From Geitlerinema sp. PCC 7407 (GTDB lineage Bacteria; Cyanobacteriota; Cyanobacteriia; PCC-7407): a stretch of 64,000 nucleotides of DNA. The first letter of the stretch is position 1. Every line of letters begins with the position of its first letter. Of the stretch, positions 31,846 through 43,396 are shown in pieces. The notes beneath the pieces are model-generated. The model was not told the origin of the DNA and ran no database searches. It saw nothing but the letters and a program-made list of their open reading frames with translations. The stretch lies in NCBI RefSeq assembly GCF_000317045.1, contig NC_019703.1, forward strand, positions 1,104,501 through 1,168,500, given 5' to 3'. Position numbers and translations under genes: made by a program.

Positions 31846-32064
31846 ATGGCTGTCGAAAAAGTGAACTCTTCCTCCAGCTTGGCCGAAGTTGTTGACCGGA
31901 TCCTGGACAAAGGAATCGTTATAGATGCATGGGTGCGCGTTTCTTTGGTGGGTATTGAACTGTTGGCAGTGGAAGCCCGAATCGTGATTGCTTCTGTGGA
32001 AACCTATCTAAAGTATGCAGAAGCCGTGGGTCTGACCTCTCAGGCAGCCGTGCCCGCAGCTTAG
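31846..32064 (+). CDS. gvpA: Gas vesicle structural protein GvpA
   Basis: Main shell protein of gas vesicles: a small amphiphilic subunit that stacks in ribs to form the hollow, gas-permeable wall. In 72 residues, [17 protein letters not shown] and [21 protein letters not shown] are the near-invariant helix-hairpin core. The usual cyanobacterial C-terminus ([14 protein letters not shown]) is followed by a short Ala-rich tail. Only one copy is present, whereas some species have two or more in tandem. It is first in the cluster and followed by two hairpins. Confidence 0.99.
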
Positions 32065-32103: not shown

Positions 32104-32127
32104 GACGCCTTCTGGCGTCTTTTGTGT
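32104..32127 (+). terminator. Second gvpA-gvpC hairpin with T tract
   Basis: GACGCC, loop TTCT, GGCGTC, then TTTTGTGTTTT: a standard intrinsic terminator placed between gvpA and gvpC. Partial read-through would give abundant gvpA message and little gvpCNJK message. Confidence 0.85.
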
Positions 32128-32162: not shown

Positions 32163-33221
32163 ATGGTTGCACTGAAGCAGCAGTGGCAGGTCCAGCGGCA
32201 GCAGCGTCATCAAGATGCTGCCCAGCGTCGCCAGCAGGTGCGGCAGACGTTGGCATCAATCCAGCAAGAACGGCAGGCGCGAACGCTCCGGCTGCGCCGA
32301 GATCTCGACGCTTTTCAGGCGCAGCTGCACCAAGATAGTCGAGACCGCCACCAGCGGCAGCAGCAGTTTCGGCAGCAGCTACACCAGGAGACCCAGGCGT
32401 TTTTGGCGAGCGCGGGCCAGCAGCGTCGGGCGATGGCCCAGGAAATGGCCCAAACCCTCGAAGCCTACGTGGCGTCTTTGCAGGCGAGCACGGCTCAGTT
32501 TTTGGCGCTGACGGCGGCGGAGCGATCGCTGATGGCCCAGCAAATTCATCGAGACCTGCGCCAGTTTCACGCGGACCTGACCGGGGCGATCGCCGCCCTG
32601 CGCCACACCCTTCAAGGCGAAGTCCAGGCCCTGCGCGCGGCGGTTCAGGCTGATTTGGCGACTCACCAGCAGCAGCGCTGCCTGATGAAAGCCCAGATGA
32701 CCCGAGATCTGGCTTTATTTCTCAAGACGCTGCGATCGGACGTGCAGAGCTATCTGTGGGAGCTGGAGCTGGTGCGCAAGGATCAGGCCTATCAGCTGCG
32801 CCAGCGTCTGGATCGCTCTCGCAGCGATCGCGCCCAAACCCTGACCCGCCTGACCCAGGACTGGGCAACCCTGCGCCGCGACTTGCAGCAGTACCGGCAA
32901 ACCCTGCGATCGCAGGTGTGGGGTGACGACTCCGGCACTTCTGATGCCCTGGAGGCCGTCGTTCCCTCGGTGGCTATCCCCGTGATTCCTCCGGCGGGGT
33001 CGGCGATCGCCCTTCAGCGTCCCGTGGCGATCGAGCCCCCCAGCATCGAAAAGCAGGTCTACGCCTACCTGCACAACGTTCGCGGCGCCAAACTCTCCGA
33101 AATCGAGCTGGCCCTGGGAATTAACCGCGTCCAAACTGTGGACGCCCTCAAAGCCCTGATCCAAAAAGGTTTAATTAGTCAGCGCGATCGCGTTTACCAC
33201 ACCCAAGAGGAAGCTGTTCTG
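32163..33221 (+). CDS. gvpC: Gas vesicle protein GvpC with C-terminal winged-helix-like domain
   Basis: GvpC binds the outside of the gas-vesicle shell and stiffens it. ATG 32163 gives a 352-residue protein opening [16 protein letters not shown], close to known GvpC N-termini. Residues 22-222 are built from 33-residue repeats (five: 22-54, 73-105, 106-138, 157-189, 190-222) plus two 18-residue half-units (55-72, 139-156). The repeats share F/YL, QQR and MAQ positions and are Gln/Arg/Leu-rich. A Val/Pro/Ala linker follows, then about 60 residues that look like a winged helix ([20 protein letters not shown], then [13 protein letters not shown]). GvpN has the same tail. Its TGA overlaps the gvpN GTG. 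Confidence 0.93.
32226..32828 (+). repeat. 33-residue repeats of GvpC
   Basis: Coding repeats of 99 bases with two 54-base half-units, in the order 33-18-33-33-18-33-33 residues. Repeat boundaries were set by eye on the recurring start Leu-x-x-x-x-x-x-Phe/Tyr-Leu and the central Gln-Arg. Confidence 0.75.
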
Positions 33222-34579
33222 TGACCACGATCTTGCAAGCACGCTCCCGCAACTTTGTCAGCACCCCCGCTGTCGAGCGTGTCACGCGTCGAGCCCTCCG
33301 CTACCTGCAATCGGGTTTCTCGGTCCACTTGCGTGGCGCTGCCGGCACCGGCAAAACCACCCTGGCCATGCACCTCGCCGATCTCCTTACCCGGCCCATC
33401 ATGCTGGTGTTTGGGGACGATGAATTCAAAACCTCTGACCTCATTGGTAACCAGCTCGGCTACACCCGCAAAAAAGTCGTCGATAACTTCATTCACAGCG
33501 TGGTGAAAGTCGAAGATGAGCTGCGCCAAAACTGGGTTGACTCTCGGCTGACCATGGCCTGCCGGGAAGGATTCACCTTGGTGTATGACGAGTTCAACCG
33601 ATCGCGCCCCGAAGTCAACAACGTCTTGCTGGCGGCCCTAGAAGAAAAGCTGCTGGTGCTGCCCCCCAGCTCAAACCGCACTGAATACATTCGGGTTAGC
33701 CCTCATTTTCGGGCGATCTTCACCTCCAACCCAGAGGAATACTGCGGGGTCCACAGCACCCAAGACGCTCTCCTCGATCGCCTCGTCACCATCAACTTGC
33801 CAGAGCCCGATGAGCTCACCCAGCAAGAAATCCTGGTCCAAAAAGCCAGCGTCGATCGCGCCAGCGCCCTCTTGATCGTGCGCTTGGTGCGGGCCTTTCG
33901 CCAGCGCACCACCAACACCGACAAGTCCTCGGGCCTGCGGTCCTGCCTGATGGTGGCCAAGGTCTGCCAAGACCACAACATCGTGGCGCGGCCCCACGAC
34001 CCCGATTTCCGGGACGTGTGCAGCGACGTGCTGCTGTCACGCAGCTCTCTGCCGCTCAAGGAAGCGACGCAGTTCCTGTGGGAGCTGCTGAACGATCCGG
34101 CCTACCAAGATTTGGAGTCGGGGCTGGAGTCGGCTCTGGGCGTCAGTCCTGCCGAGCCTGCCCCCGCGATCGCGCCCCTTCCCGAGGAGAGCACCAGCGA
34201 GGCACCCCCCGAAACCCTGGCCGAAACCCAGCCGGAAGCAGAGCCTGACACGCTAGAAGCGCCTGAAGCTTTAGCAGAAGAGGCGGCTCCCGCCCACCTC
34301 GAAGAAACCCTGCCTCCCCTGGCCGAAGCGGCGATCGCCCTGGCCCACGATCTGGAGGCCCTGGCGGCGGACCTGACCCCCCCAGTCCCTGAAGAATCAC
34401 TGGCATCCCCAGAGCAGGCGATCTACGCTTATTTGCAGGAGTCCCAGGGTGCCCGCTTGTCCGAGCTTGAAGGTGCCCTTGGCTTCAGCCGCATTCAGAC
34501 GGTCAATGCCCTCAAGTCCCTGACCGAAAAGGGCGCCGTGCTGGTGCAGCGAGACGGTTCTGTGGTGCCGGTCTCCTAA
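33221..34579 (+). CDS. gvpN: Gas vesicle AAA+ ATPase GvpN with C-terminal winged-helix-like domain
   Basis: MoxR-type AAA+ ATPase needed for normal gas-vesicle enlargement. Walker A GAAGTGKT is at 39-46, Walker B LVYDEFNR at 120-127, and the sensor region [12 protein letters not shown] follows. The AAA+ part ends near residue 290. About 105 residues of Pro/Ala/Glu-rich linker then lead to a domain at 396-452 ([33 protein letters not shown]) that matches the end of GvpC. At 452 residues it is longer than the GvpN forms I recall. GTG 33221 overlaps the gvpC stop (GTGA). Confidence 0.96.
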
Positions 34580-34621: not shown

Positions 34622-35020
34622 GTGACCTACAGCCCCCCTGCCCCCAAAGGTCGAGGCGCGATCGCCACGGCCACCTCGGGGTCAACCCTGGCCGACATCC
34701 TAGAGCGGGTCCTGGACAAAGGCATTGTGATTGCCGGCGATATCTCCGTGTCCGTTGGCTCCACCGAGCTGCTGAATATTCGCATTCGCTTGCTGATTTC
34801 GTCCGTGGACAAGGCCCGCGAAATCGGCGTCAACTGGTGGGAAAGCGACCCCTACCTCAGCAGCAAAGCCAACGCCCTGAGCGCCTCTAATCAAGAACTC
34901 CAGGCCCGCATCGAAAGCCTCGAAAGCGAGCTGCGACAGCTGCGCCAAGCCGCTGGGCTTGCCCTTCAGGCGGCCCCGACGACCACCGAATATAGCCCGA
35001 CCCAACAACCTCGCGAATAG
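34622..35020 (+). CDS. gvpJ: Gas vesicle protein GvpJ
   Basis: Minor GvpA-like protein, thought to help nucleate or cap the growing vesicle. Its core (STLADILERVLDKGIVIAGDISVSV, shown only in part, then LLNIRIRLLISSVDKARE) is clearly homologous to GvpA. A longer C-terminal region (80-132) contains WWESDPYL, the GvpJ hallmark, and a coiled-coil stretch NQELQARIESLESELRQL. The N-terminus carries an extra 20-residue Pro/Gly/Ala segment. GTG start, 42 bases after gvpN. Confidence 0.93.
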   Translation: MTYSPPAPKGRGAIATATSGSTLADILERVLDKGIVIAGDISVSVGSTELLNIRIRLLISSVDKAREIGVNWWESDPYLSSKANALSASNQELQARIESLESELRQLRQAAGLALQAAPTTTEYSPTQQPRE

Positions 35021-35110: not shown

Positions 35111-35629
35111 TTGGCAAACTGTGTATCCTTGGCCGAAGACTCTATCCTACCGACCGGAAACCAACCGAAGTCCAGCCCTGATGCTGGGCTAGCGCCGCTG
35201 CTGCTGACGGTGCTGGAATTGGTGCGTCAACTCATGGAGGCTCAGGTGATCCGCCGCATGGAAACGGGGGCCTTGAGCGATGCAGAACTGGACCGAGCGG
35301 CGGACAGTCTGCGCAAGCTAGAAGAGCAGATCGTCCACTTGTGCGAGGTCTTCGAGATTGATCCGGCGGACCTCAACATTGACCTGGGCGAGATTGGCAC
35401 GCTGCTGCCCAAGGGCGACAGCTACTACCCCGGGGAAACCTCCAGCAACCCGACGATCTTGGAACTGCTGGACCGCCTGCTGCATACGGGAGTGGTGCTA
35501 GAGGGCAGTGTGGATTTGGGGCTGGCTGAAATTAACCTGATTCACGCCAAGCTGCTGCTGGTGCTGACTTCGCGTCCTCTGCACGCCGCTCCCCCCCTGC
35601 CAGACGCGAAGCCGCCAGCAGAGCCCTAG
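35111..35629 (+). CDS. gvpK: Gas vesicle protein GvpK
   Basis: Small conserved gas-vesicle assembly protein. LAPLLLTVLELVRQLMEAQ, RAADSLRKLEEQI and the block DPADLNIDLGEIGTLLP are the GvpK signatures; a second half (TILELLDRLLHTGVVLEGSVD) weakly resembles GvpA. The start is uncertain: the full frame uses TTG 35111 (172 residues) and a second TTG at 35129 would also fit. It is the last gvp gene here, and its stop overlaps the convergent O-methyltransferase by 4 bases. Confidence 0.93.
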   Translation: MANCVSLAEDSILPTGNQPKSSPDAGLAPLLLTVLELVRQLMEAQVIRRMETGALSDAELDRAADSLRKLEEQIVHLCEVFEIDPADLNIDLGEIGTLLPKGDSYYPGETSSNPTILELLDRLLHTGVVLEGSVDLGLAEINLIHAKLLLVLTSRPLHAAPPLPDAKPPAEP

Positions 35630-39320: not shown

Positions 39321-40352
39321 CTAGGCCGCCTCGGCGCTCTCCTGCTCGATGCGCCGTTTTTGGCTCGCGCCCACGGCCTTGATGGCGGCATCTTCGAGGC
39401 GCGCGTAGAACGACGTCGGAATCAGACACAGGGCGTAGACCGCCGCGCAGGTCATCAGCGATCGCCGGGGTTCCTCCAGCACGATGCGCCAGTGGGCCTT
39501 GAGCGCCTTGTGCAGCATCTTGACGGCGGTCTCTGGATCGCGCGATCGCACCGAGCGGCGCGCCAAAAAGCGCAGTTCATAGGCGCGGGCGGCATTTCCA
39601 TGGGTGGCGATCACCTCTGGCGCGTAGCCCCGCACCTTCTCGATCACGCGCTCGAGGGCCGCCACCTGCTTGTCGATCTTGGCGGAGTGGCCGTTGGCGT
39701 GGATGCGGTAGAGAGTCAGCGCTTCGGGGATGCCCTCCAGCTTCCAGTGGGTCAGCGCCGCCATGCGCAGCCAGCACTCCACATCTTCCATGTTGTGGAT
39801 GGTGCGATCGAAGTATACGGGGTGGACTTGGCCGTCAGCGCCCACCTCTTCGTGGCGAATCGCGGCCAGGACTTCCCGGCGAATCACCGGCGTCGAGCCG
39901 TTGCCAATGGGGTTGCGGCACAGGACGTAGCCCGGTGTGATGTCTTGGGTCTTGGCGGTCTGATAGATGCCCAGAGGTTCTCCCTCGCCGTTGATAAAGG
40001 CAGAGTAGCTGAAGCTGATGCCCACTTCGGGCGATCGCTCTAGGTGCTCGACGTGCTTGGCGATCTTTTCAGGAACCCACAGGTCATCGCCATCGAGGAA
40101 CGCGATGTAGTCACCGGTGGCGTGGTGAATGCCCGTGTTGCGCGCCGCCGAGACGCCCTGATTCTTTTGGCGGATGATCCGAATCCGTGGATCGGTGAAG
40201 GTCTTGCAGATTTCGACGCTCCGGTCGGGGGAGCCGTCATCCACCAAAATCACTTCCAGATTTTGGTAAGTCTGATCCAAGACGGACTGGACGGTAGCTG
40301 CGATGTACTGCTGAACCCCGTAAACCGGGATGACGACGGAAACCTTTTTCAT
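39321..40352 (-). CDS. Family 2 glycosyltransferase
   Basis: GT-A fold transferase (343 residues from ATG 40352; the longer frame adds 14). MKKVSVVIPVYGVQQYI, ILVDDGSPDRS (nucleotide-binding Asp), RNTGIHHATGDYIAFLDGDD (DxD-type motif) and a C-terminal helical region with RRIEQESAEAA. It is cytosolic and membrane-associated at most. Sugar and acceptor are unknown. It is closely related to the GT2 at 41046-42077 (same start VIPVYGV, the same CWLRM/CWLRI and EALTLYR blocks), suggesting duplication within the locus. Confidence 0.94.
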   Translation of the reverse strand: MKKVSVVIPVYGVQQYIAATVQSVLDQTYQNLEVILVDDGSPDRSVEICKTFTDPRIRIIRQKNQGVSAARNTGIHHATGDYIAFLDGDDLWVPEKIAKHVEHLERSPEVGISFSYSAFINGEGEPLGIYQTAKTQDITPGYVLCRNPIGNGSTPVIRREVLAAIRHEEVGADGQVHPVYFDRTIHNMEDVECWLRMAALTHWKLEGIPEALTLYRIHANGHSAKIDKQVAALERVIEKVRGYAPEVIATHGNAARAYELRFLARRSVRSRDPETAVKMLHKALKAHWRIVLEEPRRSLMTCAAVYALCLIPTSFYARLEDAAIKAVGASQKRRIEQESAEAA

Positions 40353-41045
40353 GACCGTATTTACGCGAGGACGGACTACACGGACAATCTGCACACACCA
40401 GCCAGCTAAACCTACACAAGCCTCAGTATTGATGCAGGCAACGGATCGCTGCTGGCCGAAATTGAAAGAGAAAACTAAGGGTTTTTAGGGAGAGAACTGC
40501 AAACTTTGGGGTGAGCAGTAGCCAAAGTTTGAAATGAACCCTTTTCCCGAATGGAAAACACTAAAGGCTACGTTGACATACGGAGAGTAAAAACACGGAA
40601 AAAACGGCTCAAGTTTACCGAAACAAAACAATCCAGCCCAAAACTTTAAAGTTTGGGCGAACAATTGCGCGAAATTCGAGAACTCAAGGGGCGATCGCCG
40701 TCTTCAAGGCTCCTGATTTTGTTGGCAAATCCTGACAGAGTAAGGCATTGGGGATTTGGCAACGTTTCTGGGCAGCCTTCCGTACTCCACGAGAGTGCGT
40801 AAATTAAAATTTCGCCACCTAAAAAAGCGGCTCAAGATCTCTACGTGTAAATCCTGAGATTTAGTGTTTATTTAGTAGCAATTAATGCCTATCAATTACC
40901 AGTTTTTGTATCACTATGGGTCTTAAGTTTGTCTTATAAGAATCTTGCGAGAGGGGACGCCTGCGCTAGGACGGCACGCCAAAGCGGCGGACGGCGATCG
41001 CCGTCCGCAAAGCGCTAGAAACTGCTCAAAAGCGTCTGGAATTCC
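40353..41045. other. 693-base intergenic region with iterated inverted repeats
   Basis: Upstream of the leftward GT2 gene. CAAACTTTGG (40500-40509) and its complement CCAAAGTTTG (40522-40531) form one inverted repeat. A second near-palindrome, GCCCAAAACTTTAAAGTTTGGGC, spans 40636-40658. Both share the core CAAA-CTTT. I see no gene. Probably a promoter/operator region or structured leader. Confidence 0.6.
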
Positions 41046-42077
41046 CTAGACAGCCTGCTCTGCCTGCTCCTTCAAAATCTGATCTTTCTGGCCTTTGCCG
41101 GTGATCTGGGTGGCGGCCCGCTCCAGGGACGCGTAGAGCGGCTGGGGCAGCAGCCACAGCAAATGCGCCGCCACAAAGGTCAACAGGGTGCGCTTCGGCT
41201 CCTCCCGCACAATCGGCCAGTAGGTGGTGACCGAGCGGCGCATCAGGCGGGCGGCGTCCGAGGCGGCCTTTAGGCGGATGGCGCTGCGGGCGAGGTAGCG
41301 ATACTGGTAGGCCATGCCCATGGGCTCTAGGCGCTGCACCAGCTCCGGCGCGTAGGTGCGCGTCTTGGCGAGGACCTGCTCCCAGGACTCGAGCTGCTTA
41401 AACAAACTGGCCGAGAGGCCGCCCGCGTTGACGCGGTAGAGGGTCAGCGCCTCGGGCAGGCCCTCAATTTTCCAGGGAGTCTGGAGGACGATGCGCAGCC
41501 AGCACTCGATGTCCTCGGAGCGGCGAAACTGCTCGTCGAAGTAGCAGACCTCTGGGCTGCCGTGGCGGCTGTCCTCAAAGGCGATCGCCTCCAAGACCTC
41601 CCGCCGCAGGACAGCCGCCGAGCCGTTGCCGATGGGGCTGCCGCGAAAGAGATCCTCCACCGTGATGTTTTGCAGCTTCGGCATCAGGTAGGTATGGAGC
41701 GACGCACCCGCCTCGTCGATAAATTCTGATCGGCTGAAGCTGACCCCAACCTCGGGCGATCGCTCCAAGTGGGCCACGTGGGCCGCCAGCTTCTCGGGCT
41801 GCCACAGGTCATCCCCATCGAGAAACGCGATGTACTCCCCGGTGGCGTGACGAATCCCCGTATTGCGCGCGCCCGCCAGGCCCCGGTTGGCCTGCCGCAG
41901 GATGCGCAGCCGCTGATCGCCAAACTGCTCGCACACCGCCACGCTGTTGTCGGGCGACGCGTCATCCACAATCAGAATCTCGAAATTCTCGTAGGTCTGG
42001 CCTAGGACCGACTGCACGGTCGCTGCAATGAATTTCTCAACGCCGTAAACCGGAATAATGACAGAAACCTTTTCCAT
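41046..42077 (-). CDS. Family 2 glycosyltransferase (paralogue)
   Basis: ATG 42077 gives 343 residues starting MEKVSVIIPVYGVEKFI; the longer frame (to 42287) runs into the flippase gene and has no family match. ILIVDDASPDNS and RNTGIRHATGEYIAFLDGDD are GT2 motifs, and the C-terminal part (CWLRIVLQTPWKIEGLPEALTLYR) parallels the GT2 downstream. It lies 38 bases after the flippase gene and should be co-transcribed with it. Confidence 0.94.
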   Translation of the reverse strand: MEKVSVIIPVYGVEKFIAATVQSVLGQTYENFEILIVDDASPDNSVAVCEQFGDQRLRILRQANRGLAGARNTGIRHATGEYIAFLDGDDLWQPEKLAAHVAHLERSPEVGVSFSRSEFIDEAGASLHTYLMPKLQNITVEDLFRGSPIGNGSAAVLRREVLEAIAFEDSRHGSPEVCYFDEQFRRSEDIECWLRIVLQTPWKIEGLPEALTLYRVNAGGLSASLFKQLESWEQVLAKTRTYAPELVQRLEPMGMAYQYRYLARSAIRLKAASDAARLMRRSVTTYWPIVREEPKRTLLTFVAAHLLWLLPQPLYASLERAATQITGKGQKDQILKEQAEQAV

Positions 42078-42115
42078 GGCAGGGCTCGCAGAGGAGGATG
42101 AGTGAGGGCAACAGC

Positions 42116-43396
42116 CTAGGTGGCAAAGGGCGATCGCGGACCGAAAACATAGCGATTGGTCCAGATCAAGAAGATCGGCACAAAGATCACGTGAATAATC
42201 AGCACCGCCGCCGCTACGCCAATGGCCTGCCAATAGACGCCGATCATCAGCGCCACCGTAAAGAGCAGCGTGAAGGCCACATTCCACAGCAGGCCGATCT
42301 GGGGCTTGTCCACTGAGGCCAAAAGCTGGAACGCCGCCGCATCAAAGGGCCGGGGAATCGCCGACAGACAGATCAAAATCAGCACCGGCACTGCGACGAC
42401 CCACTCTTTGCCAAACAAAACCGGCACGTAAAACGGCGCAAAAACGGACTGAACCAAGACAAAAGGCACCATGATTTTGCCGATGGTGCGCAGGCTCTTG
42501 TAATAGCTTTCCTTTAGCTTGGCGAAGTCGGAGCGGACCGCGCACAGGTGCGGGTACAGCGCCACAATGATGGACTGAATAATCGAGAGGCTAATGCCCA
42601 GGCCCGCATTGAAGGCGAAGTAGTAGACTCCCAGTTCCTTGAGGCCCAAAAAGCGCCCGACGATCAGATAGTCCATGTTGTCGCGCAGGGTCTTGAGCAG
42701 GTTGATGCCCAGGATGCTGGAGCCAAACTTAAAAATTTCGCCCCAGTACTTTGTGGTGAAGCCTTTGCGGCAGCGCCAGGGGTGATAGGCGCAGTAAACG
42801 ATGAATTCGATCGGGGCCACCAGGATGCGCGGCAGCACGATCGCCCACATGCCCAGTCCCCAAAAGGCAAAGAGCGCCGTCAAAATATTGGCGGTGACTA
42901 GGGTGATGGTCTGGTTGAGGGCGACGATTTTGAAGCGGTTTTCCCGCTGGACAAGGGACGCCTGGACCCGTCCCAGGGGTCCAATGAGGTAGGTGACGGC
43001 GAGGGCACAGATGGGGACGATCAGCTGGTTGTCGTTGTAGAACCAGGCGATGGGAAAGGCGGCCAGACACTGAAGAAAGAAGAGGGCCGTGTAGACGACC
43101 CAGTTGAGCCAGTAGGCGCTGTGACTGATTTCTTCGAGGCGATCGTCTTCGGCCTGGATGACTTTGGCGCTGATGCCGATGCGCGTGAAAACCTGGGTGA
43201 ACTCGTAGGTGGTCAGGACCAGAGCAGCGAGGCCGTAGTCATACTGGGACAAGAAGCGCGGCAAAATGACGGTGGCCGCGAGGCGGGAGATCCGCACGAT
43301 CAGCTGGGAGACGCCCATCCAGCCGAGATTGCGCACGAAGCCGTCGCTCATCCGCTTCTGGATGGCTGCGCTCACTTGCTCGACAACTTTGACCAT
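42116..43396 (-). CDS. Wzx-like polysaccharide flippase
   Basis: MOP-superfamily exporter (polysaccharide-synthesis type), about 426 residues from ATG 43396. It has some 12 membrane segments and the typical N-terminal pattern GWMGVSQLIVRISRLAATVI, then LSQYDYGLAALVL. Such proteins flip lipid-linked oligosaccharide repeat units across the cytoplasmic membrane. It sits between GT2 genes of the locus, 66 bases from the upstream GT2. Confidence 0.92.
   Translation of the reverse strand: MVKVVEQVSAAIQKRMSDGFVRNLGWMGVSQLIVRISRLAATVILPRFLSQYDYGLAALVLTTYEFTQVFTRIGISAKVIQAEDDRLEEISHSAYWLNWVVYTALFFLQCLAAFPIAWFYNDNQLIVPICALAVTYLIGPLGRVQASLVQRENRFKIVALNQTITLVTANILTALFAFWGLGMWAIVLPRILVAPIEFIVYCAYHPWRCRKGFTTKYWGEIFKFGSSILGINLLKTLRDNMDYLIVGRFLGLKELGVYYFAFNAGLGISLSIIQSIIVALYPHLCAVRSDFAKLKESYYKSLRTIGKIMVPFVLVQSVFAPFYVPVLFGKEWVVAVPVLILICLSAIPRPFDAAAFQLLASVDKPQIGLLWNVAFTLLFTVALMIGVYWQAIGVAAAVLIIHVIFVPIFLIWTNRYVFGPRSPFAT

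Follow-up and report, generated by a model that had tools for sequence, protein, structure and literature searches.

The gvp cluster of Geitlerinema sp. PCC 7407 bears on two questions, the action of GvpN on gas vesicles and the arrangement of GvpC on their shell: why should its GvpC, the shell coat protein, and its GvpN, an AAA+ ATPase, end in matching tails? The window, meaning the whole 64,000-nucleotide stretch of DNA that was analysed, contains the following gas-vesicle features:

31846..32064, + strand: gvpA, major shell protein, 72 aa (from the protein sequence)
32163..33224, + strand: gvpC, 353 aa, 40.505 kDa (NCBIfam TIGR02641; computed mass)
33045..33200, + strand: predicted winged-helix tail of GvpC, residues ~295-346 (iterated tail profile, AF2 model, Foldseek)
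33221..34579, + strand: gvpN, AAA+ ATPase, 452 aa (NCBIfam TIGR02640)
34409..34561, + strand: predicted winged-helix tail of GvpN, residues ~397-447 (iterated tail profile, AF2 model, hhalign)
34622..35020, + strand: gvpJ, GvpA-like minor shell protein, without a tail (open reading frame and homology)
35111..35629, + strand: gvpK, without a tail (open reading frame and homology)

The genes are arranged in the order A-C-N-J-K, all on the + strand, with gvpC between gvpA and gvpN and the start of gvpN overlapping the stop of gvpC by 4 bases. GvpN scored 387.2 bits against TIGR02640 (cut-off 266.8), placing its core in the AAA+ family, and GvpC matched the 33-residue repeat family TIGR02641 over two stretches with 20.1 bits (cut-off 18.8), as a member with weak repeats. 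GvpC comprises a helical body with degenerate 33-residue repeats, a Pro/Ala-rich linker, and the tail; GvpN comprises the AAA+ core, an acidic Pro/Ala/Glu-rich linker, and its own tail, so both proteins have the linker that an earlier sequence-only reading had described. A terminator-like hairpin with a T run lies between gvpA and gvpC (32104-32119), which would fit a larger output of gvpA than of gvpC and gvpN, and shuffled sequences show such sites equally often. Two GvpF/L-type genes were located at a distance from the cluster (G000:C1:1991796 and G000:C1:3995805), and the gas-vesicle genes of PCC 7407 are therefore split over at least three places. Further along the window, two clearly similar neighbouring glycosyltransferase-like genes on the - strand (39321-40394 and 41046-42287; KVSVVIPVYGV... 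and KVSVIIPVYGV...) apparently represent a local duplication.

Alignment of GvpC residues 296-336 with GvpN residues 398-438 revealed 24 identities in 41 positions, bearing out the ungapped match between the two tails on which the sequence-only reading was built. BLASTP between the tails gave 56% identity over 50 residues (E 1e-18), the tail-tail alignment scored 132, whereas 2000 shuffles of one tail never exceeded 50, and hhalign comparison of the GvpC-tail and GvpN-tail family profiles returned 99.9% with E 8e-32. AlphaFold2 models, built for each tail separately from natural alignments (GvpC, m90397e474872; GvpN, m5792ab7ba343), showed the same order of three helices and then a wing of two strands, with a core pLDDT of ~90, exceeding 90 for the GvpC tail. 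Foldseek searches with both models retrieved DNA-binding as well as protein-binding winged helices (Zalpha, OhrR/MarR, IclR, AspA, and cullin WHB), with Zalpha 4wcg as the best fold match. The two tails are thus homologous winged-helix domains, and the MarR/IclR-type fold proposed for them agrees with the structure predictions, which are alike for both. Sequence matches to known families were weaker: against Pfam TrmB (PF01978), the window tails scored 24.6 bits (GvpC) and 19.0 bits (GvpN), both below the cut-off of 25.6, and matches to HTH_27/MarR and to PDB sequences were weak. The GvpN tails of two relatives (L310, L314) exceeded the TrmB gathering score, so that automatic annotation may call GvpN a TrmB regulator.

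The closed 4.68 Mb genome of PCC 7407 holds no third copy of the tail beyond those of gvpC and gvpN. Of 291 Cyanobacteriia genomes drawn evenly across the class, 101 contained a tail at E <=0.01, mostly as two copies per genome lying 1.2-1.5 kb apart. GvpN was found in 146 of the 291, and a few weak tail matches came from genomes without GvpN; of the genomes with GvpN, roughly two in three therefore carry the tail. When conserved words of the GvpC tail were used to scan 84,980 named species genomes, 38 loci matched, every one a cyanobacterial gvpC tail, among them those of Leptolyngbya, Stenomitos, Nodosilinea, Phormidium tenue, Halomicronema, and Tildeniella. Among plasmid records, the query matched a single gas-vesicle gene, the GvpN of Nostoc sphaeroides, and gave no match in the GvpN of Halobacterium, Octadecabacter, Methylocella, and others that these records also contain. 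No source of the tail outside gvp genes appeared in the PCC 7407 genome, the 291-genome draw, the 84,980-genome scan, or the plasmid records. The tail is a gas-vesicle-specific module that is old and widespread in cyanobacteria; the model planktonic lineages have no tails.

The age of the pair was assessed from the tails of ~100 genomes, in which the GvpC copies grouped largely apart from the GvpN copies, with 5 label changes against a shuffled mean of 52. Identity between GvpC and GvpN tails was 0.427 within genomes and 0.413 between genomes, compared with 0.59 among GvpC tails and 0.41 among GvpN tails. Together, these values indicate an old paralogy with no detectable conversion and a more constrained GvpC tail; the GvpN tails evolve faster. 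In the window itself, the two tails share 62% nucleotide identity overall and 39% at third codon positions. Recent duplication, one of the explanations originally offered for the likeness, and gene conversion are both rejected on the identities within and between genomes, the separate groups, and the third-position value, and no concerted evolution was seen.

To follow gain and loss, we fetched ~110 gvp loci, a biased sample in that most were chosen for the presence of a tail; of the 111 loci in the GvpN tree, 77 had both tails, 11 had the GvpC tail alone, 10 had the GvpN tail alone, and 13 had neither. The joint occurrence on GvpC and GvpN that the sequence-only reading had looked for is therefore common in this sample. 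State changes on the tree numbered 6 for the GvpC tail and ~13 for the GvpN tail, and a GvpN that has lost its tail usually keeps a disordered extension. Lone and paired GvpC tails scored alike (97 vs 98 bits), whereas lone GvpN tails scored 54 bits against 66 for paired ones, a difference confounded with taxonomy. In two Nostocales-like loci (L209, L210), both tails were present although gvpC and gvpN lie at opposite ends of the cluster. GvpN length also varied, reaching ~750 aa in L110 and L112 and 620 aa in L114; the tail is retained although the linker that joins it to the core ranges widely in length, the behaviour of a flexible tether.

Lineages without the winged helix showed other GvpC ends. 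In the short-GvpN families f5, f20, and f23 (GvpN ~294-309 aa), neither protein carries it, and GvpC ends instead in a different conserved domain of ~60 residues with the motif VRDLLAxGAxxLxVDPSEIL (L154, L155, L156, L157, and L158; alignment A6). This domain was found in 34 of the 291 genomes, none of them a winged-helix genome, had no Pfam match above threshold, and is a second, exchangeable GvpC module. In the classical family f32, the GvpC proteins sampled lack a C-terminal domain and have strong 33-residue repeats, five or six in each; the GvpN tails of this family are weak or absent. Among Planktothrix-like genomes, one (G469, locus L213) has a short GvpC without a tail and two others have the tail. 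One Planktothrix-like genome (G474) contains a pair of gvp loci (L211 and L212): at one, GvpC and GvpN are both tailed, and at the other GvpC is short and has no tail while the GvpN tail is weak.

The chemistry of the recognition helix bears on what the tails could bind. Helix 3 was compared with that of MarR, Crp, and ArsR domains from related genomes, TrmB being left out because it had too few members. Position +5 was hydrophobic in 96-98% of tails and in 0-9% of the controls, which have Ser, Thr, Asn, Gln, Gly, or His there in 82-100%. Position +6 was Asp or Glu in 96% of GvpC tails, against 0-14% acidic residues in the controls, and in GvpN tails it was about half Asp/Glu and half Asn. Mean net charge of the domain was -0.3 for GvpC tails and -0.5 for GvpN tails, compared with +1.6 for MarR, +2.9 for Crp, and +2.8 for ArsR. 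The tails thus have neither the polar or basic helix face nor the positive domain of DNA-binding winged helices of the MarR/Crp/ArsR type, and a hydrophobic/acidic face on a neutral to slightly negative domain speaks, indirectly, for a protein partner and not for ordinary DNA binding. An exposed Phe at +2 was dropped as an argument against DNA binding, since Crp-type domains have Val there, and the case uses +5, +6, and charge alone. The helix-face argument is weakened by the Pfam TrmB consensus, in which +5 and +6 are likewise Tyr and Glu, TrmB being the family nearest in sequence. The wing Pro-Pro-x-Trp of Zalpha is absent from the tail alignment, which sets the tails apart from this Z-DNA-binding family; Zalpha Asn173 and Tyr177, in a hand alignment, presumably correspond to Val and Arg in the tails. 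The coupling of vesicles to DNA that had been suggested for the tails appears disfavoured, as judged from charge and recognition-helix residues.

We tentatively favour a reading, to which we give somewhat less than even chances, in which the tails are a homotypic docking module: GvpC tails would crosslink one another, and the GvpN copy would dock on them or compete with them. The module would have arisen once, in early cyanobacterial gas-vesicle clusters, and now terminates both GvpC and GvpN, each copy tethered by a flexible linker. Mutual association of GvpC tails would knit the GvpC rods together as a mesh around the vesicle; by docking on, or competing for, a GvpC tail, the GvpN copy would enter or cap this association. 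GvpN would thereby be held at the GvpC coat, probably in the growth zone, and open the coat locally where GvpA is inserted.

Several results support this docking model: the homology and shared predicted fold of the tails, the confinement of the domain to two gvp genes, the 77 loci with both tails, the persistence of the pair where gvpC lies far from gvpN, the helix face common to both tails and suited to a protein partner, and the conservation of lone GvpC tails beside the weaker lone GvpN tails. Further support comes from Halobacterium salinarum, in which GvpC has a globular domain at its C-terminus that binds GvpN as well as itself, and in which GvpN pulls down the GvpC monomer and not the dimer, so that GvpN seems to interfere with GvpC dimerisation (PMC9372576). 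GvpN is required for enlargement of vesicles beyond small bicones (PMC11445434, PMC9501494). The precedent holds by analogy, as the GvpC domain in Halobacterium has a different fold. We know of no report of the Halobacterium salinarum GvpN carrying a copy of the GvpC C-terminal domain. The docking model is weakened by the loci with one tail alone, in which neither tail needs the other, by the faster evolution and more frequent state changes of the GvpN tail, and by the distances between GvpC and GvpN tails, which showed no correlation once the gvp background was accounted for (distances of GvpN core, GvpJ, and GvpK; partial r 0.03). Coevolution was accordingly dropped as proof of tail contact. 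The recruitment pair envisaged by the sequence-only reading thus stands as a joint occurrence and is weakened as a strict one-to-one pairing, each tail often being lost singly.

These independent losses, with the absent coevolution signal, keep alive a second model, in which coat and ATPase are gathered by an adaptor that both tails bind; GvpF/L, GvpV, or a chaperone or cytoskeletal factor would be examples. Conservation falls on the same residues in the two tails, each tail stands alone in ~10 loci, as expected of a partner encoded elsewhere, and in Halobacterium the partners of the C-terminal domain of GvpC include GvpF, H, I, and L as well (PMC9372576). However, no candidate partner tracking the presence of the tails was identified, and the gvpF/L genes of PCC 7407 lie far from the cluster; we consider a common adaptor rather less likely than docking. 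Shared ancestry without interaction, with the GvpN tail regulating the AAA+ ring within or between subunits and the GvpC tail crosslinking the coat on its own, seems less probable still: the largely separate groups, the largely independent losses, and the lack of coevolution beyond background speak for it, but both tails keep the same helix face and occur together in 77 of the 111 loci. A DNA-binding role, through which vesicles would be anchored to the nucleoid or the gvp operon would regulate itself, is very improbable given the charge and the residues at +5 and +6, even though DNA-binding winged helices share the fold and supply the best matches (Pfam TrmB/MarR; PDB Zalpha, OhrR, AspA) and some GvpN tails exceed the TrmB gathering score.

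If the docking model holds, the homotypic winged helix may be a widespread cyanobacterial way of bringing an AAA+ ATPase to a growing shell, the ATPase's copy of the coat linker entering the coat and opening it locally, and it may have been missed because well-studied planktonic species lost or replaced it; we put this broader proposal forward with considerable reserve. The distribution of the tail also cautions that such models as Anabaena, Microcystis, and planktic Planktothrix are derived, with GvpC ending in lineage-specific C-terminal modules exchanged during evolution. Because most sampled cyanobacterial gvp clusters have the domain on precisely these two proteins, it offers experiments a clear point of entry: the two 60-residue tails lend themselves to expression, mixing, and deletion, making GvpN-GvpC docking directly testable. 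As gas vesicles serve as ultrasound reporters, a coat protein that naturally bears a docking domain would also be of practical use.

A search of the open-licence literature found no GvpN or GvpC described with a winged helix, but the tail had been glimpsed, without interpretation, in a 2017 Sci Rep study. There, the C-terminus of GvpC40 from benthic Planktothrix was 78% similar over 60 residues to that of Geitlerinema PCC 7407 GvpC (40.5 kDa, WP_015171019.1; judged by its mass, very probably the GvpC of the window), 28 residues of GvpC40 were 64% identical to Planktothrix GvpN, and planktic strains had a shorter GvpC, as in the Planktothrix-like G469 here (PMC5259702). The part of that account on which we draw gives no fold, cyanobacteria-wide spread, or mechanism for the shared segment, so the supposition that the likeness was undescribed holds for these and fails for the 28-residue match (PMC5259702).

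Compared with classical cyanobacterial systems, the AAA+ core of GvpN and its place in the operon are the same here, whereas neither protein is tailed in the classical short-GvpN families sampled; Anabaena flos-aquae GvpC consists of five 33-residue repeats with short ends (PMC10185304). TrmB/MarR winged helices (PF01978, PF12802) share their fold with the tails and are their best sequence matches, but they belong to regulators, whereas the tails sit on a structural protein and an ATPase and combine neutral charge with a hydrophobic/acidic recognition helix. The conserved Cys/His set of a zinc finger is absent from the tail alignment, which separates it from haloarchaeal GvpC. The C-terminal domain of Halobacterium salinarum GvpC is, like the tail, a C-terminal module at the same place in GvpC, reported there as a zinc finger and predicted in cyanobacteria as a winged helix (PMC9372576, PMC9501494).
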